Made by a program: the position numbers and the translations under genes. From Eubacteriales bacterium (lineage in GTDB: Bacteria; Bacillota; Clostridia; Acetivibrionales; JANLFN01): a stretch of DNA of 64,000 nt. Shown here piece after piece: positions 5,870-55,768 of the stretch. Each line of letters opens with the position of its first letter. Positions within the stretch are counted from its first letter, which is position 1. The notes under the pieces were generated by a model. That model was not told where the DNA came from and did no database searches. It saw nothing but the letters and a program-made list of their open reading frames with translations. The DNA is taken from contig JANLFN010000001.1 in the NCBI GenBank assembly GCA_024655885.1, positions 310,001-374,000 on the forward strand, given 5' to 3'.

Positions 5870-6841
5870 TTAATCCATTTTTTCTATTTTTGCACCCACT
5901 TGAGAAAGTTTCTCGTCAATTCTTTCATAGCCTCTCTCGATAAGCTTGACCCCATTTACAACGGTTTCGCCTTCTGCCGCCAGTCCCGCCAAAACCAATG
6001 CGGCTCCCCCTCTTAAATCCCTGGCAGTAACATTGGCTCCCTTTAATTTTTTAACCCCTTTGATAACAGCAAGACGCCCTTCTAATTTAATATTGGCCCC
6101 CATTCTCAGCAGTTCTTCCACATGCTTGTATCTATTTTCAAAAACCGTTTCCACCACTATGCTGGTGCCTCTTGCAACGGACAGAAGGGCCACCATTTGA
6201 GCCTGCATATCCGTCGGGAATCCCGGATACGGCAAAGTCCTGACAATTTCAACGGCTTTAGGCCTTGCAGGGCCTGAAATATATATCATATTCTTTTTAA
6301 TGTTAATATGGCTTCCACTTTCCCTGAGACTGGATATAACGGAGCTTAAGTGCTCAGGTACCACATTCTTGATTCTAAGATCCCCTCCCGTTATTGCTGC
6401 CGCCACCAAATATGTTCCTGCTACAATTCTATCGGGAATAACGGTATGTTCCACATCCCTTAACCTTTTGTTGCCGCCCTTAATGCGAATAACACTGGTG
6501 CCCGCTCCTGACATATTAACCCCAAGCGAAATGAGGAAATTCTGCAGATCTACAATTTCCGGCTCCTTCGCGGCATTGCGTATGCATGTTTCCCCTTCGG
6601 CAAAAACAGAAGCAAGCATGATTTGCTCCGTTGCACCCACACTGGGGTAGTCCAGTTGAATGTCACAACCCTTAAGTTTATCCGCCTCACAGCTTATAAA
6701 ACCGTTGTTGACCTCCTGTATCCTTGCCCCCATACTTCTTATTGCTTTAAGGTGAAGGTCAATGGGCCTTGGGCCTATTTCACACCCACCCGGGTGCGTT
6801 ATGGCACAGGTACTGCTTAAGGTTGAGGTTGCCGTAAACAC
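5870..6841 (-). pseudogene. murA: murA, 3' part (UDP-GlcNAc enolpyruvyl transferase residues 115-419), separated from its 5' part
   Basis: MurA transfers enolpyruvate from PEP to UDP-GlcNAc, the first committed peptidoglycan step. This frame holds only the C-terminal 305 residues of the enzyme, from the catalytic loop PGGCEIGPRPIDLH to the end. The first 16-18 codons (from GTG at 6841) are not MurA-like and come from the inserted segment. The missing N-terminal 114 residues lie on the same strand at 55426-55768. Joined at the shared CCG GGT codons the frame continues without gain or loss, giving about 419 residues. Neither half shows stops or frameshifts, so the split looks recent or reversible. 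The GTG has only a weak AGAGAG ribosome site. ftsQ follows after 14 bp. Confidence 0.93.
6787..6795. repeat. Left boundary core repeat CACCCGGGT (att-like)
   Basis: The same 9-mer occurs at 55426-55434 in the same orientation, exactly where the two murA halves stop matching MurA. The left copy is extended by G to the perfect palindrome CACCCGGGTG. Beyond the core the two sites also share CACA two bases to the left and TTAT three bases to the right. A GTTATG hexamer (6798-6803) lies just inside the segment and is mirrored at the other end. Confidence 0.7.
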
Positions 6842-6970
6842 TTTATCTCTCTAAAAGGCTTAACCCCTTCTCTGCGTTCAACTTGAGCCAAAACGCCGTT
6901 ACGTTTAACCTTAACCCCAACCTTTAACAGATTAATCCATTTTATTTTACCACTGGTGAAACAACCTTTC

Positions 6971-7008
6971 AATTATTTAATGCTAATTTATTTAATGCTA
7001 ATTTATTC
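6971..7008. repeat. Short tandem repeat, period 15
   Basis: The unit TTTAATGCTAATTTA is repeated two and a half times in the AT-rich region between the left boundary and the murT promoter. No function is evident. Confidence 0.6.
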
Positions 7009-7064
7009 TGCCTGGTGGGAAATACTTACTTGTGAAAATAGTTATTCATTGACATTCCCCGTTG

Positions 7065-7073
7065 TGTTATAAT
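7065..7073 (+). promoter_or_regulatory. Extended -10 promoter for murT-gatD
   Basis: TGT followed by a perfect TATAAT (7068-7073) forms an extended -10 element about 140 bases before the murT start. TTGACA at 7049-7054 is too close (13-14 bp) to be a standard -35. Confidence 0.45.
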
Positions 7074-7212
7074 GAATCAACAGAAATAATTTTATTTTAT
7101 TATAAGGATGATTCATTGAAACACGCTTTACGGAAAATACAATATTATGGAAGAATGCTATTTTCCTACGCGTTATAATGGACCAAAGGCAAATAAATTT
7201 GTAGGAGTACAT

Positions 7213-8616
7213 ATGAACTTAAGACTTACTTTGACAATAGCCGTATGCAAAGTATTGATTAAAGCGTGCAGGCTGATAAACCAGGGAGGGACAACTCTTC
7301 CGGGGAAAATCGCCCTGAGGCTGTACCCGGGCATTATCAGCAAAATAACCCAGGGCTATAAAACCATTATGATTACAGGCACTAACGGAAAAACCACGAC
7401 AGCCCGCATTATTGGGCAGATACTGAAGGAAAACGGCATTGATTTCATCTCGAATAAATCCGGTGCTAACCTGGTGTACGGAGTTATCTCAACTTTTATT
7501 GAAGCCGCCGACCTTAAAGGCGGAAATTCTATCACCACGGCCCTGATAGAAATAGACGAAGCCGCTTTTAGTTCGCTGACCAAATTTATGGAACCCCATA
7601 TGCTGGTAGTCACCAATTTCTTCAGAGACCAGCTTGATCGCTATGGAGAGCTGTATGCGACCTTAAAAGGAGTCTTGTCGGGAATTGAGAGGTGCGAAAA
7701 AACAAAACTTGTCTTAAATGCAGACGATTCACTCTGTGCATCCCTCGGCAGGAATGAAAACAGGCCTACCTTATATTACGGCTTTAGCAGAAGTGCCTAC
7801 AGTGGAAAGAAAGAACTGATAAATTCCGATGCCCTGTTTTGCGTCTATTGTAAGGGCAAATACGAGTATTCATACCGTATATACGGGCACCTTGGAGGTT
7901 TTAGCTGCCCCAGGTGCGGTTACGGCAGGCCTCAAACCCATATCACCTGCACCCATATCCTTGAATTGAACAGCACATATTCGTTAATACGTTTTTCAGC
8001 GGACGCGGGAGACAAAAGCGGAAATCCACAGGAATATGAGGCAAAAATAAACCTGCCCGGCCTATACAATATCTATAACGCTCTTGCAGCAGCCGCTTGT
8101 GGCAGTATGCTGGGGCTGCCCGTGGAGAATACGATAAAAGCCCTTAAGAGCTTTGAGTGCGGATTTGGAAGGATGGAAACCATTGTTGCGGAGGGAAAGT
8201 TAATCAAGGTTATCCTGGTAAAAAACCCTACAGGATTCAACCAGGTTCTAAGCTATCTGTTGACCGAAGAAAAAAACATGCAGTTGGCTTTCCTCATCAA
8301 TGACAACGCGGCAGATGGAACCGATATTTCCTGGCTTTGGGACGTAGAGTTCGAAAAACTCGAGGACATGCAGGACAAGCTGGATAATATCTACGCGTCG
8401 GGTTTGAGAGCGGAAGATATGGCGGTGAGGCTGAAGTACGCGGGAGTGTACACAGACAAAATCCACATACTCAAAGATTACAACCAGCTGATAAATACGG
8501 GTCTATCCCGCACAAAACCGGGACACAGTTTTTTTATCCTGCCCACCTATACGGCTATGCTTGACATTAGAAAAATACTGAAAAAGAAGTTTGGTTTAAA
8601 GGAGTTCTGGAAATAA
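7213..8616 (+). CDS. murT: Lipid II isoglutaminyl synthase, MurT subunit
   Basis: Mur-ligase-like subunit that activates the D-Glu of lipid II with ATP so that GatD can supply ammonia. The P-loop GTNGKTT is at 56-62, followed by a central ligase domain with a Cys4 zinc ribbon (Cys210, 213, 232, 235) and the C-terminal DUF1727 domain. The 467-residue length fits. The frame is open from 7147, but ATG at 7213 has TAGGAG five bases upstream and gives the family N-terminus MNLRLTLTI. gatD follows after one base. It is the first gene inside the left boundary, and by coincidence or not it is also a peptidoglycan precursor gene. Confidence 0.95.
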   Translation: MNLRLTLTIAVCKVLIKACRLINQGGTTLPGKIALRLYPGIISKITQGYKTIMITGTNGKTTTARIIGQILKENGIDFISNKSGANLVYGVISTFIEAADLKGGNSITTALIEIDEAAFSSLTKFMEPHMLVVTNFFRDQLDRYGELYATLKGVLSGIERCEKTKLVLNADDSLCASLGRNENRPTLYYGFSRSAYSGKKELINSDALFCVYCKGKYEYSYRIYGHLGGFSCPRCGYGRPQTHITCTHILELNSTYSLIRFSADAGDKSGNPQEYEAKINLPGLYNIYNALAAAACGSMLGLPVENTIKALKSFECGFGRMETIVAEGKLIKVILVKNPTGFNQVLSYLLTEEKNMQLAFLINDNAADGTDISWLWDVEFEKLEDMQDKLDNIYASGLRAEDMAVRLKYAGVYTDKIHILKDYNQLINTGLSRTKPGHSFFILPTYTAMLDIRKILKKKFGLKEFWK

Positions 8617-8617
8617 T

Positions 8618-9361
8618 ATGTATGAACTGAACCTATGTCACCTATATCCTGATCTGCTTAACCTTTACGGGGACAGGGGAAATATCATCGCTCTTCAAAA
8701 GCGTGCAGAGTGGCGCGGTATAAAGGTAACCGTAACAAACCTGAGTTTGGGGGAGAGCTTTATACCCGAGAATTATGATATTGTTTTCCTTGGCGGGGGA
8801 CAGGACTATGAACAGGAAATTATCCAGGAGGATTTATTGAAGGAAAAAGGAAATGAAATAAAAAACGCCATTGAGAACAGCAAGGTTTTTCTGTGCATCT
8901 GTGGGGGATACCAGTTGCTCGGCAAGTACTACAAGACCTGGGAAGGGAAGGAAATAGAATTCTTAGGAGCCCTCGACCTGTGGACTATCGGCGGTCAAAA
9001 ACGCATGATCGGCAATATGGTTTTTGAATGCGATTTCTTGAAAACCGAGGCCTGTGACGGAAAAATCGTGGGCTTTGAAAACCATTCAGGCCGGACCTAC
9101 CTTGGCACAGGCGTTAAACCCCTGGGAAGGATGCTCAAAGGAAACGGCAATAATGGAGAAGACAAATTGGAAGGCGCCATATATAAAAACGTATACTGCT
9201 CTTATTCCCATGGAAGCTTGCTTCCTAAAAACCCCGCCTTTACAGACTTTCTTCTCACACTTTCCCTCAAACAAAAATACAAGGACTTTGTATCCCTGCT
9301 TCATTTAAACGACGATCTTGAAAACCTGGCCCACAATTCTATGGTTGAAAGGCTGTTATGA
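8618..9361 (+). CDS. gatD: Lipid II isoglutaminyl synthase, GatD glutamine amidotransferase subunit
   Basis: Class-I-like glutaminase that feeds ammonia to MurT for amidation of D-Glu in the stem peptide. The nucleophile is Cys95 in CICGGYQLLG, and the catalytic His is probably His198 in SHGSLLPKNP. The N-terminus LCHLYPDLLNLYGDRGN is characteristic of the cobyric-acid-synthase-like GatD group. The 247-residue length is normal. It is separated from murT by one base, so the two are translationally coupled and form the MurT-GatD complex. Confidence 0.94.
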   Translation: MYELNLCHLYPDLLNLYGDRGNIIALQKRAEWRGIKVTVTNLSLGESFIPENYDIVFLGGGQDYEQEIIQEDLLKEKGNEIKNAIENSKVFLCICGGYQLLGKYYKTWEGKEIEFLGALDLWTIGGQKRMIGNMVFECDFLKTEACDGKIVGFENHSGRTYLGTGVKPLGRMLKGNGNNGEDKLEGAIYKNVYCSYSHGSLLPKNPAFTDFLLTLSLKQKYKDFVSLLHLNDDLENLAHNSMVERLL

Positions 9362-9403
9362 TTTTGAAAAATAGGAAAAGAAAAGAGGACATTAATTGCA
9401 GCT

Positions 9404-10573
9404 ATGGCAAAGGTATTTTTGTTCAAGGGTAAGGAAAAGAGGGTGGAATATGGGCACCCATGGATATTCAAAAGCGATATAGAAAGCATCAGCGGAAGCT
9501 TCAGGCCCGGCGATGCCATAGAAGTGTACAGCAGGGGAAACAGGTTTTTGGGCATGGGTTATATAAACCCAAAGTCTCAAATTACCGTGAGGATGCTGTC
9601 CCCCGAGCATGAAGAAATCAACGGCGATTTCTTTTACAGGCGTATATCCTCCGCCTGGGATTACAGAAAAAAAATCGCCGACACTCAGAGCTGCAGGGTG
9701 GTCTTTGCCGAGTCCGATTTCCTCCCTGCCCTCATCGTTGATAAATTTGGAGATTACCTGGTGGTGCAAACCCTTGCCATGGGCATGGACAGGCATAAGG
9801 AAGAAGTTGTGGAAATACTGGACGAAATCATAAAGCCGGCCGGAATCTTTGAAAGAAACGATGTCCCTGTACGGGAACTGGAGGGACTGGAGCAGAAGAA
9901 GGGCTACCTGAAAGGCCATTTTGACACAAAAGTCCAAATGGTGGAGAACGGCATAAAATTTACGGTTGATGTGGAAAATGGCCAAAAGACCGGGTTTTTC
10001 CTGGATCAAAAGGAAAACCGTGCCGCCATAAAACCCCTGGTTAAAGGCGCAAAGGTGCTGGACTGCTTCAGCCATACAGGTTCTTTTGCGCTGCATGCGG
10101 CGTATTATGGGGCACAGGATGTCCTTGGCATAGATATTTCAGCCCATGCAGTGGAATTTGCCGCACATAATGCGAGACAAAACGGCCTGGAGCACATCTG
10201 CCGCTTTGAAACGGCAAATGCTTTTGATAAATTGAGGGAACTGGATGACCAAGGCCAAAAGTTTGATGTTGTCATCCTGGATCCCCCTGCTTTTGCAAAA
10301 ACCCGAAGTGCCGTTGAAGGGGCGGTGAGAGGCTATAAGGAGATCAATTTAAGGGCTATGAAAATTATAAGCAGCGGCGGCTTCCTTGTGACCTGTTCAT
10401 GCTCACACCATGTGGACCCCGACCTTTTTATGGACATCATTTACAGCTCAGCCATTGATGCCAAAAGAAAGGTAAGGCTTGTAGAGTACAGGGGCCAGGC
10501 CAAGGACCACCCCGTCCTTCTCGCCTCAGAGGAAACCCAGTACTTAAAATGCGCCATACTGCAGGTGGTGTAG
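9404..10573 (+). CDS. Class I SAM-dependent rRNA (cytosine-C5) methyltransferase, RlmI/YwbD family
   Basis: Predicted large-subunit rRNA m5C methyltransferase. The N-terminal part (1-75) is a PUA-like RNA-binding domain beginning GHPWIFKSDI. A linker follows, then a Rossmann methyltransferase with the SAM motif VLDCFSHTGSFALHAA near 225 and motif IV DPPAFAKT near 295. The CSCSHH segment near 335 holds the expected cysteines. The 389-residue length is typical. It lies 42 bp after gatD on the same strand and may be cotranscribed. Whether its target is the E. coli RlmI site cannot be told from sequence. Confidence 0.88.
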   Translation: MAKVFLFKGKEKRVEYGHPWIFKSDIESISGSFRPGDAIEVYSRGNRFLGMGYINPKSQITVRMLSPEHEEINGDFFYRRISSAWDYRKKIADTQSCRVVFAESDFLPALIVDKFGDYLVVQTLAMGMDRHKEEVVEILDEIIKPAGIFERNDVPVRELEGLEQKKGYLKGHFDTKVQMVENGIKFTVDVENGQKTGFFLDQKENRAAIKPLVKGAKVLDCFSHTGSFALHAAYYGAQDVLGIDISAHAVEFAAHNARQNGLEHICRFETANAFDKLRELDDQGQKFDVVILDPPAFAKTRSAVEGAVRGYKEINLRAMKIISSGGFLVTCSCSHHVDPDLFMDIIYSSAIDAKRKVRLVEYRGQAKDHPVLLASEETQYLKCAILQVV

Positions 10574-10612
10574 CCCTGCACAATATAGGTATCCCACTTT
10601 AGAACTGTTGTA

Positions 10613-11935
10613 TTAAATAATTTCCCTCTTTTCGATAACGGTACTCCCGTACTTGCTCGCTGCGGCAAGGAGCTCCTGCATAATACCGTCCGAAAAATCG
10701 CCAATAACCACTCCGGCCTTCCCCTTATACAACCTCAGCGCCTTCTCCAGGGCGGCCGGACTCTTGGTTTCAAAAACCAGGGGAGCCTTCAAATAAGCCT
10801 GGGCCGCATTCACAACTTTAGCCAGCAGGCCGGGATCCCCTTTGACCGCATCCACATTCACATAGACGGCCTCATAGTCCCCGGTGGCCATATCCAGGGC
10901 TTTATCCGCCACAAAGGCCAGGTTGCCGTTTTTAAGCTCATCCAGCAGTTCCCGGTCCTTCTCCGCATGGATGAAGCCCAGGTTCAGGCCCTGAAATTGG
11001 TCCTCGTGGACAACTCTAACGTCGGAGGTTATCAGCCGGCCGCACTTTCGGGCCTCTTCGGGCACTTCGGATGCCTCCGCCGCGGCTTTGATGGAGCGGA
11101 TGTATTCGGGGGTGGTGCCGCAGCATCCGCCGATGAGCCTCGCCCCATACCGGATAAACTCCCCGGTCAGCGCTGAAAAGGCCTCCACTGGTTCCTGGTA
11201 GACAAGCTCCCCATTGACAAGCTGGGGCAAACCGGCATTGGGCTTTATGCTCAGATGGATACCCCCAACCTCCCACATCCTCCTGGCAATCTCCAGCATG
11301 TGACGGGGTCCGAGAGAACAGTTGGTACCGATCATGTCGGCCCCCAGAGATTTTAGTACAGCAGCCGCCAGGTAAGGGTCGGAGCCCATTAAGGTTCTGC
11401 CGTTTGCCTGAAAGGTCAATGAGCATATTACGGGCAGGTTTGAAACATCTTTTGCCGCAAGAAGCGCCGCGCGCATCTGGGCCAGGTCGGTGAACGTCTC
11501 AAAATTGATGATGTCCACCCCACCGTCCACCACGGCCCGAACCTGTTCCTTAAAGGTTTCATAGGCCAAATCAAAGGTTAATTCCCCCGAAGGCTCGAAA
11601 AGCTCTCCTATGGGTCCTATGGATGCGGCCACAAAGCCGTCCTCGCCCATGACTTCTCTGGCAAGTCTGGCTCCCTCGTAATTCAGCTCATATACTTTTT
11701 CTCCAAGGGAGTACATCTCCAGTGCAATACGGTTAGCCTGGAATGTATTTGTCTGTATGACATCCGAGCCGGCTTCCTTGTACTGCCTGTAAATGTTTCT
11801 AACCTTCTCGGGGTATTTCAGGTTCCATTCCTCAGGGCATTCTCCTCCTTTTAGGCCTGCCTTCTGGAGCATAACGCCTTTTGAACCGTCATATATTAAT
11901 ACCTTTTTCTTGATCTCTTTAAGAAAATTCCTCAA
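10613..11935 (-). CDS. Homocysteine S-methyltransferase family protein with an extra C-terminal domain
   Basis: The first 300 residues form the zinc-dependent homocysteine-binding barrel found in the N-terminus of MetH. It starts VLIYDGSKGVMLQKAG (a DGAMGT-type motif) and has the zinc ligands Cys206, Cys271 and Cys272 (GTNC and GGCCG). The remaining 140 residues do not belong to that barrel. Segments such as LAKVVNAAQAYLKAPLVFE recall the start of a pterin-binding domain, but it is far too short to be complete. The methyl donor is unknown. The start is TTG at 11935 behind GGGAGG. It is convergent with the methyltransferase at 9404. No S-box leader is seen upstream. Confidence 0.85.
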   Translation of the reverse strand: MRNFLKEIKKKVLIYDGSKGVMLQKAGLKGGECPEEWNLKYPEKVRNIYRQYKEAGSDVIQTNTFQANRIALEMYSLGEKVYELNYEGARLAREVMGEDGFVAASIGPIGELFEPSGELTFDLAYETFKEQVRAVVDGGVDIINFETFTDLAQMRAALLAAKDVSNLPVICSLTFQANGRTLMGSDPYLAAAVLKSLGADMIGTNCSLGPRHMLEIARRMWEVGGIHLSIKPNAGLPQLVNGELVYQEPVEAFSALTGEFIRYGARLIGGCCGTTPEYIRSIKAAAEASEVPEEARKCGRLITSDVRVVHEDQFQGLNLGFIHAEKDRELLDELKNGNLAFVADKALDMATGDYEAVYVNVDAVKGDPGLLAKVVNAAQAYLKAPLVFETKSPAALEKALRLYKGKAGVVIGDFSDGIMQELLAAASKYGSTVIEKREII

Positions 11936-11981
11936 TGGATTCTTCCTCCCGGTGGACTTTAAAATTTTTTAAATAAAGCAA

Positions 11982-12022
11982 AAGTGATAAACAGAAACAT
12001 TATTTTTTCAGGTTTACCACTT
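11982..12022 (-). terminator. Hairpin between the 88-aa gene and the homocysteine methyltransferase gene
   Basis: Arms of 11 bp (11982-11992 and 12012-12022) with one mismatch; on the minus strand the stem is followed by TTTTGCTTT. This would end transcription from the gene at 12353. Confidence 0.45.
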
Positions 12023-12086
12023 GGCAATACAGAATATATATCATAAATATTACTAAAGGAATAAGCAAAAGGCGGAATAGGATTTG

Positions 12087-12353
12087 TCAGCCGGTTTTTG
12101 AACCGGGTACCAGCAGTGTATATCCTTCGTTGGTGTTAACAATTCTGTTGTACCTGATTTCATAGTCTATCCTCTCACCGGTATGCAAAATAACATATGC
12201 GCATCCGACCATTTCTTCTTTTTCTTTTTCCAGAACAATTTTATACTGCTCATCTTCTATTACTTTAGATATTTCTTCATAATAAAACCTGGTGCTATAG
12301 TCTTTTAGAATTTCAAAAATTACCTTCTCATGTGGGGCTGCTTGACGGGACAT
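12087..12353 (-). CDS. Hypothetical protein, 88 aa
   Basis: I do not recognise this family. The ATG at 12353 has GGAGG seven bases upstream and is preferred to an in-frame start five codons earlier. The protein is soluble, mixed alpha/beta and charged. The N-terminal half is helical and acidic/basic (KVIFEILKDYSTRFYYEEI); the C-terminal half looks like short strands (AYVILHTGERIDYEIRYNRI). It has no cysteine pair, signal or membrane segment. It stands alone on the minus strand between the acyl-CoA ligase and the homocysteine methyltransferase gene, with a hairpin after it. Confidence 0.75.
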   Translation of the reverse strand: MSRQAAPHEKVIFEILKDYSTRFYYEEISKVIEDEQYKIVLEKEKEEMVGCAYVILHTGERIDYEIRYNRIVNTNEGYTLLVPGSKTG

Positions 12354-12494
12354 GATTACCTCCACCATTTATTTTTCTTTATTATATCAGTTGTTCAATA
12401 TGATTTCAATTAATTATTACCATTTATTATAATCTTTTACATCGTGGCTTTTTAAACATGGCCCGTGAATAAAAAGCAAAAGGTGCCAAAGGAA

Positions 12495-14159
12495 TTATGC
12501 CGTTTCTATAGATGCCGCATCCTGCAGGTTCAATTCCTCAATGGCCGCCTCTCTCATCTTATACTTCTGTATTTTGCCGCTGGCTGTCATGGGAAAGCTC
12601 TCCATAAACTTCACGTATTTAGGAGTTTTATGTCTCGCCATATGGCTTTTTACATACTCCTTTATTTCCTCTTCGGTTGTGCAAGCACCCTCCTTCAGGA
12701 TAATGCAGGCCATCACCTCTTCTCCGTACTGCTTGCTGGGAACGCCGATCACCTGTACGTCTTTTACCGCAGGATGGGTATACAAAAATTCCTCTATTTC
12801 CTTTGGATAGATGTTTTCTCCACCCCTTATGATCATATCCTTTATCCGGCCCGTGATCTTGTAGTAGCCGTTTTCATCCACCGTAGCCAGGTCCCCGGTG
12901 TGCAGCCACCCATCCTCATCAATGGCTTGAGCCGTGGCTTCAGGCATTTTATAATAGCCTTTCATTACATTATAGCCCCTTACGACAAATTCTCCCGGGA
13001 CTCCGCAGGGCACTTCCTGGTTGGTGTTAGGGTCAACAACTTTTGTTTCAATAAAAGGAAGCGCCCTGCCCACAGTGGAAACACGCAGTTCTATGCTGTC
13101 ATGTACTCTCGTCTGGGTGCATACCGGAGAAGCTTCGGTCTGTCCGTAAGCAATGGTGATTTCCTTCATCCCCATCAGGTCTACAACCTGTTTCATAACC
13201 TTTATAGGACAGGGTGAACCTGCCATGATCCCTGTCCTCAGCCTGGGAAAGGCGAATTTTTTAAAATCCGGATGCTCCAGCATGGCAATAAACATGGTGG
13301 GCACTCCGTGCACGGCCGTACAGTTTTCATTCTGGATTGCCTCCATTACTTTGAGCGGCTGGAAATAATCCACAGGTACCATTGTGGTGCCATGGGTCAC
13401 ACAGGCCATTACAGCGAGCACACAACCAAAGCAGTGAAAAAACGGGACCGGAATGCACAGCTTATCCTCATGGGTAAAATTCATACAATCGCCGATACAT
13501 TTCCCGTTGTTTACAATATTGTAATGGGTAAGCATTACGCCCTTTGGGAAACCTGTTGTCCCGGAGGTGTACTGCATGTTAACGACCTCGTGTACGTTCA
13601 GGCTGGACTGTACCCTTCTCAGCTCTTCATCCGAAACTTCCTGCGCCATTTCATATAAATCGCGCCAATTGAACATTCCGGGTTGAACACTGTCTCCTAT
13701 ATAAACCACGTTTTTTAAAAAAGGAAGTGAAGGATTGTTCAGTTCGCCGGGTTTGGAATTCTTCAGCTCAGGACACAGCTCATTCAATATCTCCACATAA
13801 TTGCAGTCTTTAAACCCATCTATCAAAACAAGGGTATGGGAATCGGACTGCCTCAAAAGATATTCCAGTTCAAATATTTTATAATTGGTATTGACCGTGA
13901 CCAGAACTGCTCCAATTTTTGCGGCTGCAAACATGGTGATGAGCCACTCCGGATAATTTGTAGCCCATATGGCCACATGATCCCCCTTTTTCACCCCCAT
14001 GGCCATAAAACCCTTGGCAACAGTATTGCATATGTCCCTAAATTCCGAGTAAGTTTTTCTAAAAGGCCTGTCGGTATATAAAACAGCGTCATGGTCGGGA
14101 TACCTGTCCGCCATCTGGTCAAGCAAATCTCCCACTGTAATTTCTAATAAGCGATCCAT
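12495..14159 (-). CDS. AMP-forming acyl-CoA synthetase (fatty-acid CoA ligase family)
   Basis: Member of the ANL superfamily that activates a carboxylic acid with ATP and then transfers it to CoA. Motif A3 YTSGTTGFPKG lies near 190, A5 YGQTEASP near 335, A7 DGWLHTGD near 415, A8 GRIKDMIIRGGENIYP near 435, and the A10 lysine in PMTASGKIQKYK near 525. The 554-residue length is normal. ATG at 14159 is chosen because GGAGGGC lies 8 bases upstream. A complete T-box leader with a Leu (CTC) specifier precedes it and no other gene intervenes, so its expression should follow uncharged tRNA-Leu. This suggests, without proving, a substrate linked to leucine, such as a branched-chain acid. Confidence 0.93.
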   Translation of the reverse strand: MDRLLEITVGDLLDQMADRYPDHDAVLYTDRPFRKTYSEFRDICNTVAKGFMAMGVKKGDHVAIWATNYPEWLITMFAAAKIGAVLVTVNTNYKIFELEYLLRQSDSHTLVLIDGFKDCNYVEILNELCPELKNSKPGELNNPSLPFLKNVVYIGDSVQPGMFNWRDLYEMAQEVSDEELRRVQSSLNVHEVVNMQYTSGTTGFPKGVMLTHYNIVNNGKCIGDCMNFTHEDKLCIPVPFFHCFGCVLAVMACVTHGTTMVPVDYFQPLKVMEAIQNENCTAVHGVPTMFIAMLEHPDFKKFAFPRLRTGIMAGSPCPIKVMKQVVDLMGMKEITIAYGQTEASPVCTQTRVHDSIELRVSTVGRALPFIETKVVDPNTNQEVPCGVPGEFVVRGYNVMKGYYKMPEATAQAIDEDGWLHTGDLATVDENGYYKITGRIKDMIIRGGENIYPKEIEEFLYTHPAVKDVQVIGVPSKQYGEEVMACIILKEGACTTEEEIKEYVKSHMARHKTPKYVKFMESFPMTASGKIQKYKMREAAIEELNLQDAASIETA

Positions 14160-21301: not shown

Positions 21302-21302
21302 A

Positions 21303-47986: not shown

Positions 47987-48022
47987 CGCATACCGCCTCC
48001 GTCTCATGATCTTTATGGGTAC

Positions 48023-48055
48023 AAAAAAGCTGTGATTTTATAGTCTAACCACAGC
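48023..48055 (-). terminator. Terminator after the ECF gene
   Basis: On the minus strand GCTGTGG and TCACAGC form a 7-bp stem with one wobble pair, followed by six T's, ending the ECF transcript before the cysteine desulfurase gene. Confidence 0.7.
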
Positions 48056-48150
48056 ATATGTCGTTTCTCCTCTTAAGTTTCCTGGCGCTGAACATTTTGT
48101 TTTGGAAAAAAGTTCAGGCGCTAATTTCCAAGTATAGCTTTAAATATCCC

Positions 48151-48687
48151 CTATCCGTTCATCTCAACACTTTTTCCAAGGGCCCTCAACACAATCAACG
48201 CAATGGCTCCTCCCACCAAAGCCGTAACCAGTTGAGGCCAACCGAAAAGGAAATACAGGGTGCCAGCCAGTTTGGGAGCCATTTTCAGCACCACCAGGAA
48301 AAAGGATACCGAGCCGAAAAGCACCCCGAATTTTAAAACCGCACCCAGGATTATTCCGGCAATTTTGCTCTTTTTAAGCAGAAAATAGAAGCACAGCACC
48401 AGTACAATATTGCCGGCTGCTACAAAAGGCGAAAAAGGCAGAAGAAAGGATGCAATGGGTGAATGGGTTGTAAGCAGAGAACCCACAGGCGCTATGGCCG
48501 CTATGATGATTCCTCCCCACACTCCTACTGTGGCAGTGGCAATAAGAAGACATGCATTGACCAGGGGTCCCACAATAAAATTGCTGTTGGGTCCCAAGGG
48601 GACAAAGCGCCCCAAGGATTGAAATACAAGGGTCAATGCCGCCAAAATGGCTGTTCTGGCAATAAATCTAACCTTTACACTCTTCAT
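48151..48687 (-). CDS. ECF transporter substrate-binding (S) component
   Basis: Membrane protein of 178 residues with five to six helices. The N-terminus (KSVKVRFIARTAILAALTLVFQSLGRF) carries the ARTAILAAL-type motif that docks S components onto the shared EcfT subunit. Small-residue-rich helices such as GPLVNACLLIATATVGVWGG follow. ATG at 48687 follows GGAGG. The vitamin or metal substrate is not evident; it does not look like ThiT, BioY or RibU to me. A structured leader with a terminator (48745-48905) suggests ligand control. Confidence 0.82.
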   Translation of the reverse strand: MKSVKVRFIARTAILAALTLVFQSLGRFVPLGPNSNFIVGPLVNACLLIATATVGVWGGIIIAAIAPVGSLLTTHSPIASFLLPFSPFVAAGNIVLVLCFYFLLKKSKIAGIILGAVLKFGVLFGSVSFFLVVLKMAPKLAGTLYFLFGWPQLVTALVGGAIALIVLRALGKSVEMNG

Positions 48688-48744
48688 ACTAACGACCTCC
48701 ATAAAGAATACTTTCTAGTCCAAAATTCAAATACGTAAAAATAC

Positions 48745-48905
48745 AACAAAAAAGCCCCTCATGACTATTCACGTCACAAAGGGCAAAGACACAACAAGCA
48801 TCTCGGCTCACCCTTCGTTTAGAATACTCTTTCCCGTTAGGCATAATACACCTGGATTTTCCTTCAATGTAAGATTTTCTCCTCACCATCTCGGAATATG
48901 CAATT
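48745..48905 (-). promoter_or_regulatory. Structured leader RNA of unknown class upstream of the ECF gene
   Basis: The 200 bases between the upstream stop codon and the ECF start end in a clear terminator on the minus strand (arms 48773-48784 and 48754-48765, then six T's). Upstream of it are about 120 bases with the octamer CCGAGATG twice (minus strand; 48799-48806 and 48887-48894) and TGAGG/GGTGAG beside each. I checked it by eye against TPP, FMN, cobalamin, SAM, THF, preQ1, ZTP, Moco, glycine and T-box consensus blocks and found no match. It may be a riboswitch not in that list. Confidence 0.5.
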
Positions 48906-49157
48906 CTAATATGTCAGGGCCACCTTTACTCTTACCCCCTTTAAGTTACCCAGCTTACCGGTTAAGGCGCCGATTTCGTCGCCGGTACCGTCGGCTATAA
49001 CCGAAATAACCGATATACCCCGTTCCCTATACGGTATCCCCATCCGGCCTACAATAATCCTCCCATAACTGCTCAGTATTTCATTTACTTTTCCCGCTGT
49101 CTCTTCACGGTTGCTGATCACGATTCCTATAACCGCAACCCTTGTTTCCTTTTCCAT
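48906..49157 (-). CDS. TM1266-type iron-only hydrogenase system regulator
   Basis: Small ACT/NikR-like protein of 83 residues. The sequence VAVIGIVISNREETAGKVNEILSSYG and GRMGIPYRERGISVISVIADG matches the family associated with [FeFe]-hydrogenase maturation genes. No hydrogenase gene lies in this window. The start ATG follows AGGGTATGAT. It is cotranscribed with, or immediately precedes, the leader of the ECF gene. Confidence 0.87.
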   Translation of the reverse strand: MEKETRVAVIGIVISNREETAGKVNEILSSYGRIIVGRMGIPYRERGISVISVIADGTGDEIGALTGKLGNLKGVRVKVALTY

Positions 49158-49380
49158 ATCATACCCTGGTTATGTACTTATTCACACAATAAATTCCTAA
49201 AATTTATATGCTTTTATTATACCAATTTTTTAGGTAAAGTAAAAGGCAAAGTAAACAATTTTATTCCTACTGGCCATTTTTTTCATATAATTCCTTCAGC
49301 GTTGATAAGATGCTGTACGGAATCCCCAGGCATTTAATGGGAAAGCCCTAACGATTTTTCTCATTTTTACAGCACAAGCC

Positions 49381-49417
49381 AATAATAAAAGCCCGGAACG
49401 CCGGACTTTTATTATTT
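49381..49417 (-). terminator. Strong terminator after the 668-aa SLH gene
   Basis: A nearly perfect 16-bp stem (AATAATAAAAG.CCGG pairing with CCGG.CTTTTATTATT) has a 4-base loop and T-rich 3' flank on the minus strand. Confidence 0.88.
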
Positions 49418-49448
49418 TTATAATTTAATCGCTGGATTATTTTTTCAT

Positions 49449-51455
49449 CTACTGTATGGATATTACTACCAGCTCCGCCTTCCCTCCCGGCCTGTCAAGG
49501 TATACATCCACCTGTCCGTATACCCAGTTGGTTTTAACATCATTGATACCTTTTTCGGCGCAAACTCCGTTATAATACTTGAAGTAAATTTTAACATCAT
49601 CCCTGAAGCGGTATACATTGCCGTTAACCATAATCCTCTTTTCATCTATGGCCCCCACGGCGACGCCCTTGGCATCGGCATTAGGAATTTCAACAATTTT
49701 ATTTACAGAATTATTTGCCATTTCCACCTTCACCACATCTCCCGCTTTGGTATCTTTTATCTGGGGATAAGTGGTGTACAGATATTCATTTCCGTCAATC
49801 ATCAGCGTATACTCATACCTTGAATTTCTGTCATTTGCAATTTTCTCAACCACACCAAACCTGTAGTGGTCATAGAAAGCATCATTGAGCACCAGCACAT
49901 TGATGTCCGAGAAAGGACCGGTCCTGTTCCAGAACGCAATTTTTCCCTCCTCCAGGTTGCCCGTAGGCATATCCGACCAGTCTATGAGGCTCACGTCGCA
50001 ATCTTTTCCCTGGTCATTGGATATCAGGTTGAATATTTTCACGTTCTCTGTGACATCTGTAGAATTAATCTGTCTGTCATCCTTGTCCACCGTCACCTCT
50101 CCGATGTTCATGTAGGGGACATCCTCCAGGACAACCTTTTGCAGTTGGTTTTCCGAGGTCTCCTGGGTTGACGTATTGGGGTCATATACCTTTTGATACT
50201 TGACTACCTTGCCCTTTTTGTCCCAAGGATCCGAATCCACTTTGAATGTCTGGGTGGCTCCGCTGGTCAGCAGGAGCTTAACGGTGTACACCCTCTTCCC
50301 GTAGTCGGACAGGTCGGTGGACGTGGTTGTGCCCCAGTTGACCACAAAGGCAAAATTCGTATTGTCGCTGCTGTCAGGGTAGTATATGTCCACAACCTTG
50401 CCGTCATAGCCCAGAAGGATGGTTACGTTCTCATTAATCTTAAAGGACCCTGCCGTGCTGTTAATTTTATTCAAGTCAAAATATTTGCCCAGCTCATAGT
50501 CGGTGCCGTCGATCTGAATTGTCGTTGGAGAAAATTTATTGGGGAGTATGCCGGTGATATTCCCTGTCACCTTGTTGTCCACCACAAGGATATACCTGTT
50601 TTTGTTGGCGGCGTCCGACACCTGGTATACCACGTCATAGTCCTTGATCTGCGATATCTTGATGGATTCCCCTATATTGTTGGTCTGTGGGCTGGTGCTT
50701 TTGTCAATGGTGTTGCGCACGATGGGAGGATTCCCGCTAAGATCGATGGACCCCAGCTTTTTCGTGGCCGGGTTGAAATTTTTCACCACCTCGGGCTTGC
50801 TGTAAACCGAGTAAATATTGTCCCTGGTCATGCCCACTTTTGCCGCGTAAGTCTGGTCCGCATCCCCTGCGCTGGCCTTTTTCACATTAGTATCCAAAAG
50901 TCTGTCCACCATCAGTACAAAGGCCCATCTTGGCAGACCGTCGTTTGCACCGAGATTGATACCTGCCGTCAGTCCAAGCTCTGCCGCTTTTCCCACGTAG
51001 TTTTTGGGCCATAGTCCCTGTACATCGTCGTCGGTATATCCCAATGCCCTTACCAATACCGTACAGGCCTGCGCAAAGGTTATGCTCTCACCCGGGTGAA
51101 ATTTTCCGTCCGGCATGCCGGAAATCAGTCCTTTATTCAAAGCTGCGTTGATATATCCGCTTGACCAGCCGTTCAGCTCTACATCGGGAAAAATCGTGGA
51201 CCCTTTCATGGAATCCGCCACCGTCTCAAGACCCGAGGCAATCACCATGCCCTTGGCAAACTGCTCCCTTGTAATTATTTCATCGGGCCTGAACTGGCCG
51301 CTCCCGTCTCCGCTCACAATCCCCAGCGAGCTCAAACGCTCCAGTGCGTCCGCATATACGGCGTTGCCGGGTACGTCCGTAAACCCTCCTGCATATGCAC
51401 CGGTGGCAATGCATAGTATTGCTGCAATTAAAGCAAGTGATATGTATTTTTTCAT
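49449..51455 (-). CDS. S-layer-homology domain surface protein, 668 aa
   Basis: Exported protein with a classical signal peptide (cleaved after ATGAYA, residue 22), then two clear SLH modules and a third weaker one (about 23-200; GGFTDVPGNAVYADALERL, IVSGDGSGQFRPDEIITREQFA, LISGMPDGKFHPGESITFAQA). The remaining 470 residues are beta-rich with no recognised domain or catalytic motif. It is likely anchored to the wall polymer and part of the surface layer. The bases coding FHPGES contain the decamer CACCCGGGTG (51089-51098), the same as the boundary core; this is probably coincidence. Confidence 0.92.
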   Translation of the reverse strand: MKKYISLALIAAILCIATGAYAGGFTDVPGNAVYADALERLSSLGIVSGDGSGQFRPDEIITREQFAKGMVIASGLETVADSMKGSTIFPDVELNGWSSGYINAALNKGLISGMPDGKFHPGESITFAQACTVLVRALGYTDDDVQGLWPKNYVGKAAELGLTAGINLGANDGLPRWAFVLMVDRLLDTNVKKASAGDADQTYAAKVGMTRDNIYSVYSKPEVVKNFNPATKKLGSIDLSGNPPIVRNTIDKSTSPQTNNIGESIKISQIKDYDVVYQVSDAANKNRYILVVDNKVTGNITGILPNKFSPTTIQIDGTDYELGKYFDLNKINSTAGSFKINENVTILLGYDGKVVDIYYPDSSDNTNFAFVVNWGTTTSTDLSDYGKRVYTVKLLLTSGATQTFKVDSDPWDKKGKVVKYQKVYDPNTSTQETSENQLQKVVLEDVPYMNIGEVTVDKDDRQINSTDVTENVKIFNLISNDQGKDCDVSLIDWSDMPTGNLEEGKIAFWNRTGPFSDINVLVLNDAFYDHYRFGVVEKIANDRNSRYEYTLMIDGNEYLYTTYPQIKDTKAGDVVKVEMANNSVNKIVEIPNADAKGVAVGAIDEKRIMVNGNVYRFRDDVKIYFKYYNGVCAEKGINDVKTNWVYGQVDVYLDRPGGKAELVVISIQ

Positions 51456-51498
51456 GTCAATCCCCCATTAGAATTATTTATGATAGGTTACAGCCCTT

Positions 51499-52677
51499 TT
51501 ATTCAAATCTTAATGCCTCTATCGGGTTCAGCTTTGCGGCCTTATAGGCGGGAAACATTCCAAACACCACTCCGATGGCCAGGGAAATCACGAAGGACAT
51601 GACAATCCACGGTATGGAATACACCTCTGGTATGATCTTAAGACCGCCGGCAACAATTTTTACGACTGCGACGCCAAACAGGATTCCCATAATTCCGCCT
51701 ATTCCCGTAACCACCAGCGCCTCAATTAAAAACTGCACAAGAATGCTTTTCCTTTTTGCCCCAATAGCCTTCCTGATTCCAATTTCCCGCGTTCTTTCGG
51801 TTACCGAAACCAGCATGATGTTCATAATTCCGATGCCGCCCACAATCAGCGAAATAGCGGCGATTCCCGCCAGGACAAAGGTCATTGTCCCGGTGACCGT
51901 AGAAAGGGTCTGCAGCATCTGGGCCTGGTTAAATACGCGGAAGGTCTTGGTGTCCTTGTATATGGCCGTAAGAAAAGTATTCAACTTTTCCATGGCGGCA
52001 TCCACCGTCTCAGGCGTTGCAGCCTGGACCGCAAAGCTCCGGATCACCGCATTCTTTGTGAGTCTTTGAGCCACGGTCACAGGGATGACCACAGTGTCAT
52101 CGGCGGATTGGTCCTGCCCGTTGTCCGTTTCTTCCAGCACCCCCACCACCGTAAACTCCTGGCCGTTGATCTTTATTGTTTTCCCCAATGGGTCGGAACC
52201 TTCAAAAACCTCGCTAACCAGGGCTGTTCCCACCAGGGCTACCTTCTGCATATAATCCACGTCAAAACTCATCAGAAATCTTCCTCTTTGGACGTGCATA
52301 TTCTTTACCGACTCATATTCCGCATTTGTCCCCAGCAAAGTGGTATCTCCCGTCTTATTTCCCACTTTAACCTTGACGCTGCTGCTGATGGTGGGTGAAA
52401 TGGCGCTGATGATATCGCTGTTTTCTTCCGCCAGCTTCTGCAGCTGGCTGTATGTAACATTCCTGTTGCTGTTTCTCCCTGTAATCATGATTTGAATCAG
52501 GTTGGTCCCCATTCCCTGTACCGAATCGGTGATGTTTTTTGTGCTCCCCTGTGCAAAGGAAACGGCCGCTATGACCGCACCTACACCGATGATAACCCCA
52601 AGCATGGTTAAAAAAGACCTTCCCTTGTTGCCCAAAATACTTTTAATAGCCATTTTATATGCTTGAATAAACCCCAT
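51499..52677 (-). CDS. MacB-like ABC transporter permease
   Basis: The 392 residues have the MacB/FtsX plan: one N-terminal helix preceded by [24 protein letters not shown], a large extracytoplasmic MacB_PCD domain (about 50-265), and three C-terminal helices with [19 protein letters not shown] and [18 protein letters not shown]. It begins directly after the stop codon of the ATPase gene (no gap) behind GGGAGGTGA. With the ATPase and the membrane-fusion protein it forms a YknXYZ/MacAB-type system. Such systems export peptides, toxins or antibiotics, or sense envelope stress. Substrate unknown. Confidence 0.93.
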
Positions 52678-53355
52678 TCAGCTCACCTCCCTGTCCTCTA
52701 TGACTTCTCCGTCCTGGATCCGGATGATTCTTTGGGACTGCAGGGCCACATTATTGTCATGGGTTATGAGAATAATGGTATTCCCCTTGCTGTGCAGCTC
52801 CTTCAAAATTTTCATGATTTCGACGCCGGATTTTGTATCCAGGTTGCCGGTGGGCTCATCGGCCAGGATTATGGGGGGAGCGCTTACAAGGGCTCTTGCA
52901 ATTGCAACCCTCTGCTGCTGTCCTCCCGACAGCTCCGAAGGCTTATGGTCCAGTCTTTCCCCAAGGCCTACGCTCTCCAGTGCGGCCTTTGCCTTCTTAT
53001 GCCTCTCCTTTGCGTGAACGCCCTGGTATATGAGGGGAAGCTCCACATTTTCAATGGCCGTAAGTTTTTGCAGCAAATTGAACCCTTGAAATATGAAGCC
53101 TATCTTGTAATTCCTTATATGCGCGAGCTCGTCGTCATTGAGCTTGCTGACTTCTTTCCCATCCAGGATGTAAGTGCCCGAAGTGGGAGTATCAAGGCAT
53201 CCCAGCATATTCATCAGCGTGGATTTCCCTGAACCGGAAGGACCTGTTATGGCCACAAATTCGTGCTGCCTGATGCTCAGGCTTATATTATTCAAGGCGT
53301 TTACCACATTATTTCCCATAGTATACTTTTTGCACATGTTGGATATTTCTATCAC
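52678..53355 (-). CDS. MacB/LolD-like ABC transporter ATPase
   Basis: Nucleotide-binding subunit with Walker [10 protein letters not shown] near 38, Q-loop FIFQGFNLL, signature [15 protein letters not shown] near 141, Walker [12 protein letters not shown] and H-loop ITHD. GTG at 53355 has GGGG 7 bases upstream and gives [11 protein letters not shown], the family start; the frame is open 17 codons further up, overlapping the upstream gene. The 225 residues are standard for the MacB/LolD class. Confidence 0.95.
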
Positions 53356-53386
53356 TCGTTCACCCCATCCCTTCATCCATGGAATA

Positions 53387-55216
53387 TTACCTTGGGCCGC
53401 CATCACCCGGGCCGCCGCCCATCATCATGGTCTGCCGCTGGGTGCTGGTGCTCCTCGTCGTCTGGGTTTGTGCCGGAAGAATGACTTCCTCTCCTTCCTT
53501 CAATCCGCTCACGATTTCAATATAATCGGTTGTATTGATCCCTACTTCCACCTCTCTTGGTACGGCATTGGCATAATTCCTGCCGGATGCAGTGCCGGTT
53601 CTGGCATTATTGGACCTCTGGCCGCTGCTCCCCGTCTGATTTGCTCCCGTCGCATTACCGCCGCCCTGCCGGCTAAACGAATTGGCACCGGAGGCATTAT
53701 TGGTACCTGCCTTTGCAGTATTACTGCCGGTTGTGGGATTATTCTGGCTCTGGGCTTTTTGCCCGCCGCCGCTCTTTCCGTCTGACTTTACCCAAACTAT
53801 GGTCTTGTTGTTTTGCTTCTGAACGGCTTCAATAGGAACATACAGCACATTTGTCTTGTTTTCCACCATGATTTCCGCGTTGGCATTCATCCCCACCTTG
53901 AGGTTTTCCGGATTATCGATGGATATGGTAACAGGATAGGTCGTAACCCCGTTGGAAGAGGTGCCCTGGGATTCTATATAGGATACAACGCCCGTGAGGG
54001 GCTTGCTTGTTGTTTCCGGAAGTGCGTCTATGGTGACGTTCACCTTTTGGCCCAGCTTTATCTTTGCAATGTCAAGCTCGTCGACGGGAATGGGGAACTG
54101 CATGTGGTCGCTGTCTATGAGCACGGCAAGGGATTGCCCCTTCTCCACCGAATCTCCGGTACCTACCTTTTGGTCTACGATCACGCCGTCCATAGGGGCG
54201 TAGATTTTATAATAGGTAAGCTGCTTTTTAGCCGTATCCACCTGCACCTGCAAATCAGTGATTTTTATGCTTGCGGTCTCCTTGTTAAGTAAAACGCTGT
54301 CATCTTCCAGTTCAACCATGATCGCTCCCTTATCCACATACTGGTTTTCCATCACATTGATTTTTTTGACGGTCCCTGACGTAGCACTTTTAATCACCCT
54401 GCTTTCCGCTACCTTCAGGGTGCTGCTGCCGGCGCTGGAAATGGTACCGGCAGGGGTCGCAATTTCCGCATTGGCCGTCATGCCCTCCTGCAGTGAGCCG
54501 GGATTTTCAATAGTAATTTCCACGTTATACAGCTGTCCTCCGGAAGATGTGGAATAGGGCTTATTGCTTATGTAGGATACCTTTCCGCTTACAGACTGCA
54601 TAAGGCTCGGCAGGTACACGGTTGCCGGCTGGCCGGTCACGATGTTTGTGATTCCGCCGCTGTTAAAGGGTACCAGCAGTGTGAGTGTGGAATTGTCGGT
54701 GAGGGTGAGTATGGCTGTACCCTTGTTCAAGACATCCCCCACCTTGACCTGAATGCCTGTGACATGGCCGCTGAAAGGAGCCTTTACATTAAGGTTCTCT
54801 ACGTCCGAAACCGCGTTATTATACGATAAAAGGGCTTGTTCCATATTGTTCTTCGCCTGTTCAAGGTTCAAATTCGCGTCGGAATCATCCAGTTCAAACA
54901 TTAAATCCCCGGCCTTGACCCTGTCGCCTTCCTTGAAATAAGCCTTTGTTACCGTACTGTTTACACTGGAGAAAAGTTCATCCTTGTTGGAGGATTCAAT
55001 GGCTCCTGAACCGGTTACCGTCACGGTCAAATCACCCCTTGCGACCTTTGCCGTCCGCTGTGTGACTGCGTTTTTACCGGAGGCCCCCAATATTTTGAAG
55101 CCGTTCAATAGAAGAAAAACCCCGACGATCACAACCAGTAGAATTCCCACCACTACTATTTTTCCAGTTTTCTTGCCAATAAATGTCCTTGTCTTAGATA
55201 TGATTTCCGCCGTCAC
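53387..55216 (-). CDS. Membrane fusion (HlyD/RND-like) subunit of the MacAB-type exporter, 609 aa
   Basis: One N-terminal transmembrane helix (about 19-37) anchors an extracytoplasmic adaptor. Unusually the protein has two lipoyl/barrel-sandwich units: one around 60-180 (GAIESSNKDELFSSVNSTVTKAYFKEGD, split here) and a second around 265-375 (VIKSATSGTVKKINVMENQYV). Beta-barrel segments follow. Residues 480-560 are a low-complexity Gly/Asn/Ser/Ala linker, and the tail ends with TMMMGGGPGDGGPR. The start is GTG at 55216 behind AAGGAGG. It is the first gene of the three-gene export operon and lies just inside the right boundary, so its promoter region abuts the murA 5' part. Confidence 0.9.
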   Translation of the reverse strand: MTAEIISKTRTFIGKKTGKIVVVGILLVVIVGVFLLLNGFKILGASGKNAVTQRTAKVARGDLTVTVTGSGAIESSNKDELFSSVNSTVTKAYFKEGDRVKAGDLMFELDDSDANLNLEQAKNNMEQALLSYNNAVSDVENLNVKAPFSGHVTGIQVKVGDVLNKGTAILTLTDNSTLTLLVPFNSGGITNIVTGQPATVYLPSLMQSVSGKVSYISNKPYSTSSGGQLYNVEITIENPGSLQEGMTANAEIATPAGTISSAGSSTLKVAESRVIKSATSGTVKKINVMENQYVDKGAIMVELEDDSVLLNKETASIKITDLQVQVDTAKKQLTYYKIYAPMDGVIVDQKVGTGDSVEKGQSLAVLIDSDHMQFPIPVDELDIAKIKLGQKVNVTIDALPETTSKPLTGVVSYIESQGTSSNGVTTYPVTISIDNPENLKVGMNANAEIMVENKTNVLYVPIEAVQKQNNKTIVWVKSDGKSGGGQKAQSQNNPTTGSNTAKAGTNNASGANSFSRQGGGNATGANQTGSSGQRSNNARTGTASGRNYANAVPREVEVGINTTDYIEIVSGLKEGEEVILPAQTQTTRSTSTQRQTMMMGGGPGDGGPR

Positions 55217-55273
55217 TTTTTTACCTCCTTGTTCATATATGCACTAAAATATCCGGCAATTAGATTTATACCG

Positions 55274-55768
55274 TTATTCAACATAATTATCCCATATTGT
55301 CATTGTAGCCATAAAATGTATCAAATCAGTGAAGAAAATATTAATAAATTGTGAATAATAGGAACGGGCAGGAGTTGAGCCGTCCTCTTTATTAGACTCT
55401 GAAAGTGCCCACAGCATAACACATTCACCCGGGTAGCTTATAGTCACTTTTTTTAGCCTTGACAGCATGGAACCTAGAAATATGATGGATGACCTCATTT
55501 CAATGGCAAGGGTTTCCGGGATTTCCGTCTGGCTCACCTTTGATGAGTCAACAGTAATAGTACCGTTTTCAAAAGAAACATCACAGCCTATGATTTTTAA
55601 TATTTCCAGAGTAGTTTCAACATCTCTTAATCTGGGACAGTTGTGGATAACATTCATGCCGCCGTTTAATATCGTTGCTGCCAGAATGGGCAGAACAGCA
55701 TTTTTTGCTCCTTCCACAGCCAATTCCCCTTTTATTTTTTGTCCTCCAGTTATAAGCAACCTGTTCAT
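55274..55768 (-). pseudogene. murA: murA, 5' part (residues 1-114) fused to 50 codons of inserted sequence
   Basis: The frame starts at ATG 55768 behind GGAGGTG and reads MNRLLITGGQKIKGELAVEGAKN, the MurA N-terminus with the UDP-GlcNAc/PEP lysine Lys22 of KN. It is normal up to ISYPG (residue 114). At the core repeat (55426-55434) the protein stops resembling MurA; the next 50 codons (beginning ECVMLWALSES) belong to the inserted segment and end at 55274. The rest of MurA is at 5870-6795, 48.6 kb away on the same strand. It lies 156 bp after murG. As it stands the product lacks most of both enzyme domains and should be inactive alone. Confidence 0.93.
55426..55434. repeat. Right boundary core repeat CACCCGGGT (att-like)
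   Basis: Second copy of the 9-mer at 6787-6795, same orientation. On the murA side it codes TyrProGly. CATAAC (55415-55420), the inverse of the GTTATG found inside the left boundary, lies just inside the segment. Confidence 0.7.

Follow-up and report, generated by a model that had tools for sequence, protein, structure and literature searches.

The dcw-cluster copy of murA, a gene for a peptidoglycan-precursor enzyme, is held in two separate pieces in the DNA analysed here, a stretch of 64,000 nucleotides (the window) from contig JANLFN010000001.1 of a Eubacteriales bacterium of the order Acetivibrionales (assembly GCA_024655885.1). The same split occurs throughout the order and is old. We consider it likely that it is a fixed arrangement whose halves would be joined in trans, in the mother cell of sporulating bacteria, by a large serine recombinase referred to below as clade M, with the assistance of a small basic protein.

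Conservation of a split murA gene

In the source genome (G000, 3.44 Mb in 65 contigs; G001 onward denote other genomes of the order and f-numbers its families), the N-half of murA comprises residues 1–114 (114 codons) at 55427..55768 on the minus strand and ends in KKVTISYPG, after which the frame enters non-MurA sequence. The C-half, at 5870..6793 on the same strand, starts with PGGC, the loop of the catalytic Cys, and reads PGGCEIGPRPIDLHL...EKMD to the stop codon. The cut falls at PG|GC, and both breaks contain the 9-bp core CACCCGGGT, the left (6787..6795) and right (55426..55434) copies of which start 48,639 bp apart. Joining the co-oriented halves within the shared codons yields an uninterrupted MurA frame. 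An earlier note on this DNA had described such a cut, within the codons of PGGC, with halves 48.6 kb apart on one strand that could be rejoined in frame, and both points are confirmed. It had also spoken of an essential wall gene and proposed a search for a second complete murA; the genome has two further full-length copies, which are 57% (contig C9) and 49% (contig C7) identical to the C-half, and this leaves the description as essential without support.

A C-half of the dcw murA was found in 54 of the 58 genomes of the order at a threshold of E 1e-112. It is split in 46 of them (frames of 310–353 amino acids, aa) and unsplit in eight from five families (G002, G008, G012, G016, G021, G023, G030 and G037; 421–438 aa); G010, G014, G019 and G055, in which none was found, stand outside these counts. 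In 40 genomes, including the source genome, the dcw C-half lies mostly in a frame of ∼ 310–350 aa running from the break, and the other murA copies listed are at least 360 aa long, nearly all of them more than 415 aa. The N-halves are located elsewhere, and their match to MurA ends near the same residue. When the pieces are joined after the CC of the shared codons, all 29 genomes with both halves give one frame of 418–432 aa with PGGC, the start codon being chosen by rule; the usual attributes of MurA, a length of ∼ 420 aa and the PGGC catalytic loop, thus appear only after joining. Because identical codons are cut across the order, including in single-contig genomes, the split cannot be put down to chance.

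Of 16 named loci, several of which come from genomes of the 58-genome set, 11 are split. They include those of the cultivated species Acetivibrio straminisolvens (Acetivibrionales), A. alkalicellulosi and Herbivorax sp., and that of Alkaliphilus pronyensis (Peptostreptococcales). The five unsplit ones, labelled Oscillospiraceae (two), Ruminococcus, Clostridia and Lacrimispora, run on without a break past PGGC. In A. pronyensis (locus L227, 5001–5400) the N-half ends at the same PG codons, is followed by a similar arm and then by ABC transporter genes, and no recombinase was seen among the open reading frames (ORFs) read within 5 kb. This suggests that the split either is wider than the Acetivibrionales or arose twice. 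The best murA tree, the base of which is unresolved, has four changes of the unsplit state; a single change is compatible with its well-supported branches.

Both halves lie on one contig in twelve genomes. In direct orientation they are ∼ 10–12 kb apart in G004, G018, G027, G032, G036 and G039, 23 kb in G005, 48.6 kb in the source genome, 92 kb in G028 and 253 kb in G035; on opposite strands they are 528 kb apart in G003 and 606 kb in G048. Since both the spacing and the genes of the segment vary, what remains constant is the two sites at the breaks and not the DNA between them.

Proposed recombination sites and the clade-M recombinase

Alignment of 31 N-sites and 35 C-sites, codon constraint and an inverted repeat delimit a proposed site at each break, both on the minus strand in the source genome. 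The N-side site (55405..55450) would consist of an outer arm of murA codons, AAAGTGACTATAAGCTAC (55433–55450), a core CCGGGT (55427–55432) and an inner arm, GAATGTGTTATGCTGTGGGCAC (55405–55426). The C-side site (6771..6815) would have the inner arm CAGTACCTGTGCCATAACGCAC (6794–6815), the core CCGGGT (6788–6793) and an outer arm of murA codons, GGGTGTGAAATAGGCCC (6771–6787). A rough N-side consensus is AAAGTgACTATaAGCTAy-CCgGGT-GrGTGTGTtAnntTATTGGCAc. Synonymous positions in the coding arms of split genes are constrained: on the N side ACT encodes Thr in 28 of 30 cases, AGC Ser in 24 of 27 and GGT Gly in 29 of 31, and on the C side GAA accounts for 35 of 35 Glu and ATA for 30 of 32 Ile codons. 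The corresponding figures in the eight unsplit genes, a small sample, are 0/3 for ACT, 2/5 for AGC and 4/6 for GAA. With one genome taken from each of 12 families, the fraction of identical codons among the six before the break was 0.679, compared with 0.394 in the rest of the N-half (best other window, 0.613). On the C side it was 0.641 versus 0.400, and, as the best other window reached 0.635, the codon signal there is weaker. The inner arms within a genome form inverted repeats, matching at a mean of 14.4 of 22 positions versus 8.6 after shuffling, and exceed the 95th percentile in 25 of 29 genomes. This layout is the one expected for the attachment sites attL and attR of a serine integrase, in which case joining would produce an intact murA (attB-like) and a near-palindrome (attP-like).

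A search for second targets in 17 genomes gave a weak result. Among the matches listed, which included none from G000, G001, G007 or G009, the murA N-site was the only match at 0–1 mismatch in G011, G013, G015, G017, G028, G031 and G048, other places matched as well as the murA site in G033 and G035, and at 3 mismatches most counts were close to the control. In G035, GGTACTTTTTTTACAGTATTGGCA occurs in more than 10 dispersed copies, probably a repeat family.

Recombinases of the PF07508 family are present in 38 of 40 genomes, and G007, which is 99% complete and has the split, encodes exactly one. The relatives of this protein form a single clade, clade M, with ∼ 50–60% identity (47–49% for the pieces found in f4). 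Clade M is present in 45 of the 46 split genomes and in none of the eight unsplit ones (Fisher p 8.6e-9, a value that ignores relatedness). In the 45 genomes the gene is uninterrupted in 36 cases, interrupted in eight (seven of f4 and G028) and in overlapping frames in G047. At E 1e-60, six of the unsplit genomes have no match and the other two, G012 and G037, only relatives of 35–36% identity. Among the genomes outside the counts, G055 has clade M and no C-half that was found, a split N-half occurs together with N-pieces of the recombinase in G019, and G014 lacks both clade M and a dcw C-half. The source-genome gene (G000:C57:23680-25143) is on another contig than the murA halves, and its product has the domain set of a large serine recombinase, namely Resolvase (PF00239, 3.7e-18), Recombinase (PF07508, 3.8e-24) and zinc ribbon (PF13408, 3.2e-15). 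A pattern for the catalytic-serine motif matched 18 of 30 loci and was not used further.

Ten genomes could be read on one contig for both halves and the clade-M gene or part of it; in nine of them the gene is not situated between the halves, and in G035 it is. Its surroundings recur: apgM is the next gene or within ∼ 9 kb in 14 of 20 loci fetched, and genes for RpoN, a CPBP protease and 5-formyltetrahydrofolate cyclo-ligase (families named by scanning one copy of each) are found repeatedly nearby. Clade M therefore looks like a resident chromosomal gene. Its best NCBIfam matches, all weak and far below the cut-offs, are CcrB and CcrC followed by XisF of the fdxN element. A phage source was rejected: the ten best matches listed had at most 33% identity, all 811 matching records were below 60%, and none was found in viral contigs. 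Nor is clade M the sigK (SpoIVCA-type) recombinase, because a full-length sigK match exceeds the cut-off in 30 of the 46 split-murA genomes, including G000, G001, G007 and all 14 of f13.

Some further features of these genomes were noted. The sigK gene is fragmented in the majority of f4 genomes, as well as in G005, G009, G010, G016, G026, G028 and G034; as murA is unsplit in G016, the two splits are separate. Upstream of the recombinase, on the opposite strand, eight loci (L200, 9049–9363; L203, 8886–9200; and six others) encode a conserved protein of ∼ 105 aa, one copy of which matched nothing in Pfam or NCBIfam. The nearby rpoN was considered as a second split gene and dropped, as no recombination signature was seen; sigma-54 genes of ∼ 390 aa that stop short of the RpoN box occur in G007, G003, G011 and G017 (loci L198, L200, L203 and L216), and full ones in G001 and G031. 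At G029:C503:5663-8121, ∼ 1 kb after the N-half, lies a serine recombinase of 40% identity; the N-side inner arm is off consensus there, and the recombinase possibly belongs to a later element in the site.

Outcome and control of the proposed joining

We propose that the dcw murA is held in two pieces in the germ line and that clade M acts in trans on the two attL/attR-like sites in the PG|GC codons. With the halves in direct orientation, the intervening DNA would be excised as a circle, and with the halves on opposite strands (G003 and G048) the outcome would be inversion. Joining would probably be confined to sporulation and to the terminal mother cell, in which the loss of germ-line DNA would be harmless and precursors of the spore cortex are required; growth would rely on the two other murA genes.

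The region upstream of the recombinase carries a promoter-like motif consistent with such timing. In the 420 bases preceding the recombinase match, 28 of 37 loci contain GGACAWNNTT (shuffled sequences: mean 0.79, maximum 4), and 19 of 37, from seven families, contain GGACA-N18..30-CATA, with a spacing of 23 in every one of them (shuffled sequences: mean 0.52, maximum 4). These figures are to be read with the facts that the loci are related and that the GGACA motif was picked by eye from the sequences before testing. We take GGACAA to correspond to the B. subtilis SpoIIID box and CATA to the sigma-E -10 element. Both are displayed as logos in PMC517825. The C. difficile SpoIIID box, KRTAACARK (PMC5025042), fits the conserved GGACA motif less well than does the B. 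subtilis box. To judge from its sequence, the motif looks like mother-cell control.

Many loci also encode, upstream of the recombinase, a basic protein of ∼ 31–58 aa, such as SKSRVIIKKYTGQKKAEEILSKIIQLFL in G048. With a hidden Markov model (HMM; E <1e-4), this micro-ORF was found in 29 of the 37 genomes examined, none of them of f6. These represent 10 of 11 families, G007 being the exception, and in G028, G019 and G018 the micro-ORF precedes a cut recombinase gene. The model was built from 23 of the 29 (those other than G000, G019, G028, G039, G043 and G047). CATAYANT precedes the micro-ORF in 10 of 29 regions versus 1.33. The micro-protein is a candidate directionality factor. Sigma-E and SpoIIID control the directionality factor of the C. 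difficile skin element, and a putative SpoIIID motif has its centre 46 bp before the start site (PMC5025042).

In f4 genomes and in G028, the recombinase gene itself is cut, at WYNE|RY or WFNE|RY. Both of its pieces were found in G028 and in all five f4 genomes searched for both (G018, G027, G032, G049 and G051; the N-piece search did not include G036 and G052). The pieces are 14, 27, 25 and 38 kb apart in G027, G032, G051 and G028, respectively; in G018 and G049 they are on separate contigs. Each of these six genomes has a further serine recombinase on the inner side, 0.3–5.3 kb from a break. If the arrangement works, joining of murA there must await joining of the recombinase gene. We would give an even chance to the broader proposal that this is a domesticated, trans-acting DNA-splicing system, order-wide and perhaps wider in Clostridia, which joins distant and sometimes inverted loci into a functional wall gene and which in at least six genomes runs as a two-step cascade through a second integrase.

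Several observations weigh against joining by clade M in the mother cell. No joined murA was found among the genome assemblies with clade M. G029 is split and has no clade M, only a relative of 40% identity ∼ 1 kb from the N-half, and in G010 (580 contigs) a split N-half was found and no clade M. The clade-M gene of G047 is broken into overlapping frames and the recombinase C-piece of G028 has stops. The HMM detected no micro-ORF in eight of 37 genomes, G007 among them, and that of the source genome (E 3.7e-7) is ∼ 4.7 kb away from the recombinase, upstream of which GGACA-N23-CATA is absent. A scan of 23 of 30 loci for textbook sigma-factor consensus sequences gave no excess. Finally, the C side of the unsplit G002 gene is spelled as in split genes, and the codon signal on that side is the weaker one.

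The same recombinase and sites might instead join the halves stochastically in growing cells, as in phase variation or bet-hedging, an alternative that we regard as improbable but the strongest of those considered. It would fit the lack of the sporulation-like motif upstream of the source-genome recombinase, the mother-cell timing is something we only infer, and the two genomes with inverted halves would lose no DNA. However, the assemblies of all 45 genomes that combine clade M with a dcw C-half show the split state, so that in the sequenced cells joining must have been an infrequent or restricted event. In direct orientation, stochastic joining would cost a growing cell pheST and tRNAs (source genome) or polA (G004 and G027, named from translations), and the conserved upstream motif resembles mother-cell control.

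Alternatively, the halves might be translated separately into a MurA of two chains, with no joining. Both halves are indeed under purifying selection: in nine close pairs compared without gaps, the nonsynonymous divergence (dN) is 0.004–0.10, well below the synonymous one (dS; undefined for one N-half). In addition, 11 of 35 C-halves, that of the source genome included, have an in-frame ATG, GTG or TTG upstream. In the other 24, however, none of these codons stands between the last in-frame stop and PGGC, so that translating the catalytic loop from a usual start would require joining there. After PG the N-halves continue into non-MurA sequence of variable length that often stops within a few codons, and neither the synonymous constraint nor the recombinase would be explained. 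We consider a two-chain enzyme very improbable. Trans-splicing of two transcripts paired through their inner arms, which are complementary, appears less probable still: no intron family exceeded the gathering score in the window (Rfam), the constraint extends to the coding outer arms, the split co-occurs with a DNA recombinase, and we know of no RNA splicing of such kind in bacteria. That the split gene is dead, a redundant copy decaying by drift beside two other full murA genes, is scarcely credible in view of the open frames and low dN of both halves over many families and of the conserved site DNA.

Intervening DNA and relation to known rearrangements

The DNA between the halves (6796..55425), which would leave as a circle on joining, is ordinary chromosome. 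It includes genes for MurT-GatD, a methyltransferase, DegSU-like proteins, AdhE, CorA, POR subunits, PheST, an epimerase, an SLH protein and ABC/HlyD transporters, together with an M-box (corA), two T-boxes (one with pheST) and two tRNAs. Of the 40 window proteins in the Pfam scan, which left out shorter ORFs, 34 lie inside the segment; 31 of these match ordinary chromosomal families, three match nothing, and no recombinase, phage or island family was matched. Translations of the whole G004, G027 and G039 segments likewise revealed no recognisable recombinase or phage or island genes. Their genes are ordinary ones unlike those of the source genome, and those of G039 differ from those of G004 and G027.

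A skin element with an internal recombinase was accordingly rejected as an explanation for all four segments. For the source genome a composite transposon with terminal repeats was rejected too, since the right end of the segment has no other copy in the genome and the two short matches of the left end lie near the start of murT, not at the break.

The earlier note had interpreted the locus as a precise insertion akin to skin that was recent or reversible. What stands of this is the precise, reversible-looking and site-specific split of skin type, with a short shared core and, in silico, in-frame rejoining. An inserted element is not supported, given ordinary DNA that differs between genomes, spans 10–253 kb or separates halves on opposite strands, and mostly excludes the recombinase; neither a discrete element with its own recombinase nor phage or island genes were recognised in the segment. 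The supposed recency fares no better, as the comparison of murA contiguity in relatives that the note had called for revealed the same cut order-wide, in 46 of 54 dcw murA genes and in the Alkaliphilus N-half. Relatives sharing the arrangement, with MurA homology continuing past the breaks, had been named as evidence to the contrary; the arrangement is shared, but the homology ends at the break. A recent skin-type element in the murA of this strain, or an assembly error, would account for the 9-bp core at both ends and is otherwise hardly conceivable, considering that the same codons are cut order-wide, also in single-contig genomes, and that no mobile genes were among the proteins scanned.

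The heterocyst nifD, fdxN and hupL elements resemble the murA case in that a gene is joined in a terminal cell, and differ from it in their element-borne recombinase and in the cell type. The closest parallel within spore-formers is the sigK skin of B. subtilis and C. difficile, where a host gene is likewise split by sites within codons and a large serine recombinase is involved. In skin, however, the recombinase and directionality factor are inside the element and the target is a sigma factor, whereas here ordinary chromosome of 10–253 kb or inverted halves are concerned, the recombinase is usually elsewhere and the gene encodes a peptidoglycan-precursor enzyme. The separate directionality factor of C. 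difficile skin, which sigma-E and SpoIIID control (PMC5025042), would have its counterpart in the candidate micro-protein. The gin insertion in gerE of B. cereus ATCC10987 also consists of non-phage DNA with a 9-bp shared core and uses the serine recombinase GirC with GirX, but it is a 28.6-kb genomic island with its own recombinases and is present in some strains (PMC5595907); the murA split is order-wide and no island was recognised. SP-beta in spsM of B. subtilis and yin in yabG of C. botulinum similarly interrupt sporulation-linked genes, although these are a prophage and a prophage-like segment (PMC4191935, PMC10747680) and no phage genes were matched here.

In the excerpts of open-access literature available, we found no account of a split or rejoined murA, and the sporulation rearrangements described there remove a discrete element with its own enzyme. 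In the murA case such an element has disappeared or can no longer be recognised, the split as such is conserved over many families, and the presumed joining enzyme has a chromosomal place of its own. If the proposal is true, programmed DNA joining has become fixed in this lineage for a wall-precursor gene, at the cost of 10–600 kb discarded or inverted in one cell type, and the supply of peptidoglycan precursors is tied to mother-cell fate. The reason why such switches persist would become testable, and there would be a new integrase with paired sites to study.

The remaining features of the window concern the flanks of the C-half. Downstream of it, the distal dcw genes ftsQ, DUF1290, ftsA, ftsZ, spoIIGA and sigE occupy 67..5855 on the minus strand (Pfam). 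On its other side it adjoins murT-gatD (7147..9361, plus strand; Pfam), as it also does in G004, G027 and G039, where these genes were named from translations. Just upstream of murT, at 7104–7138, a sequence of 27–33 bp recurs in the source genome at G000:C32:244361 and C41:30803 (94–96%).

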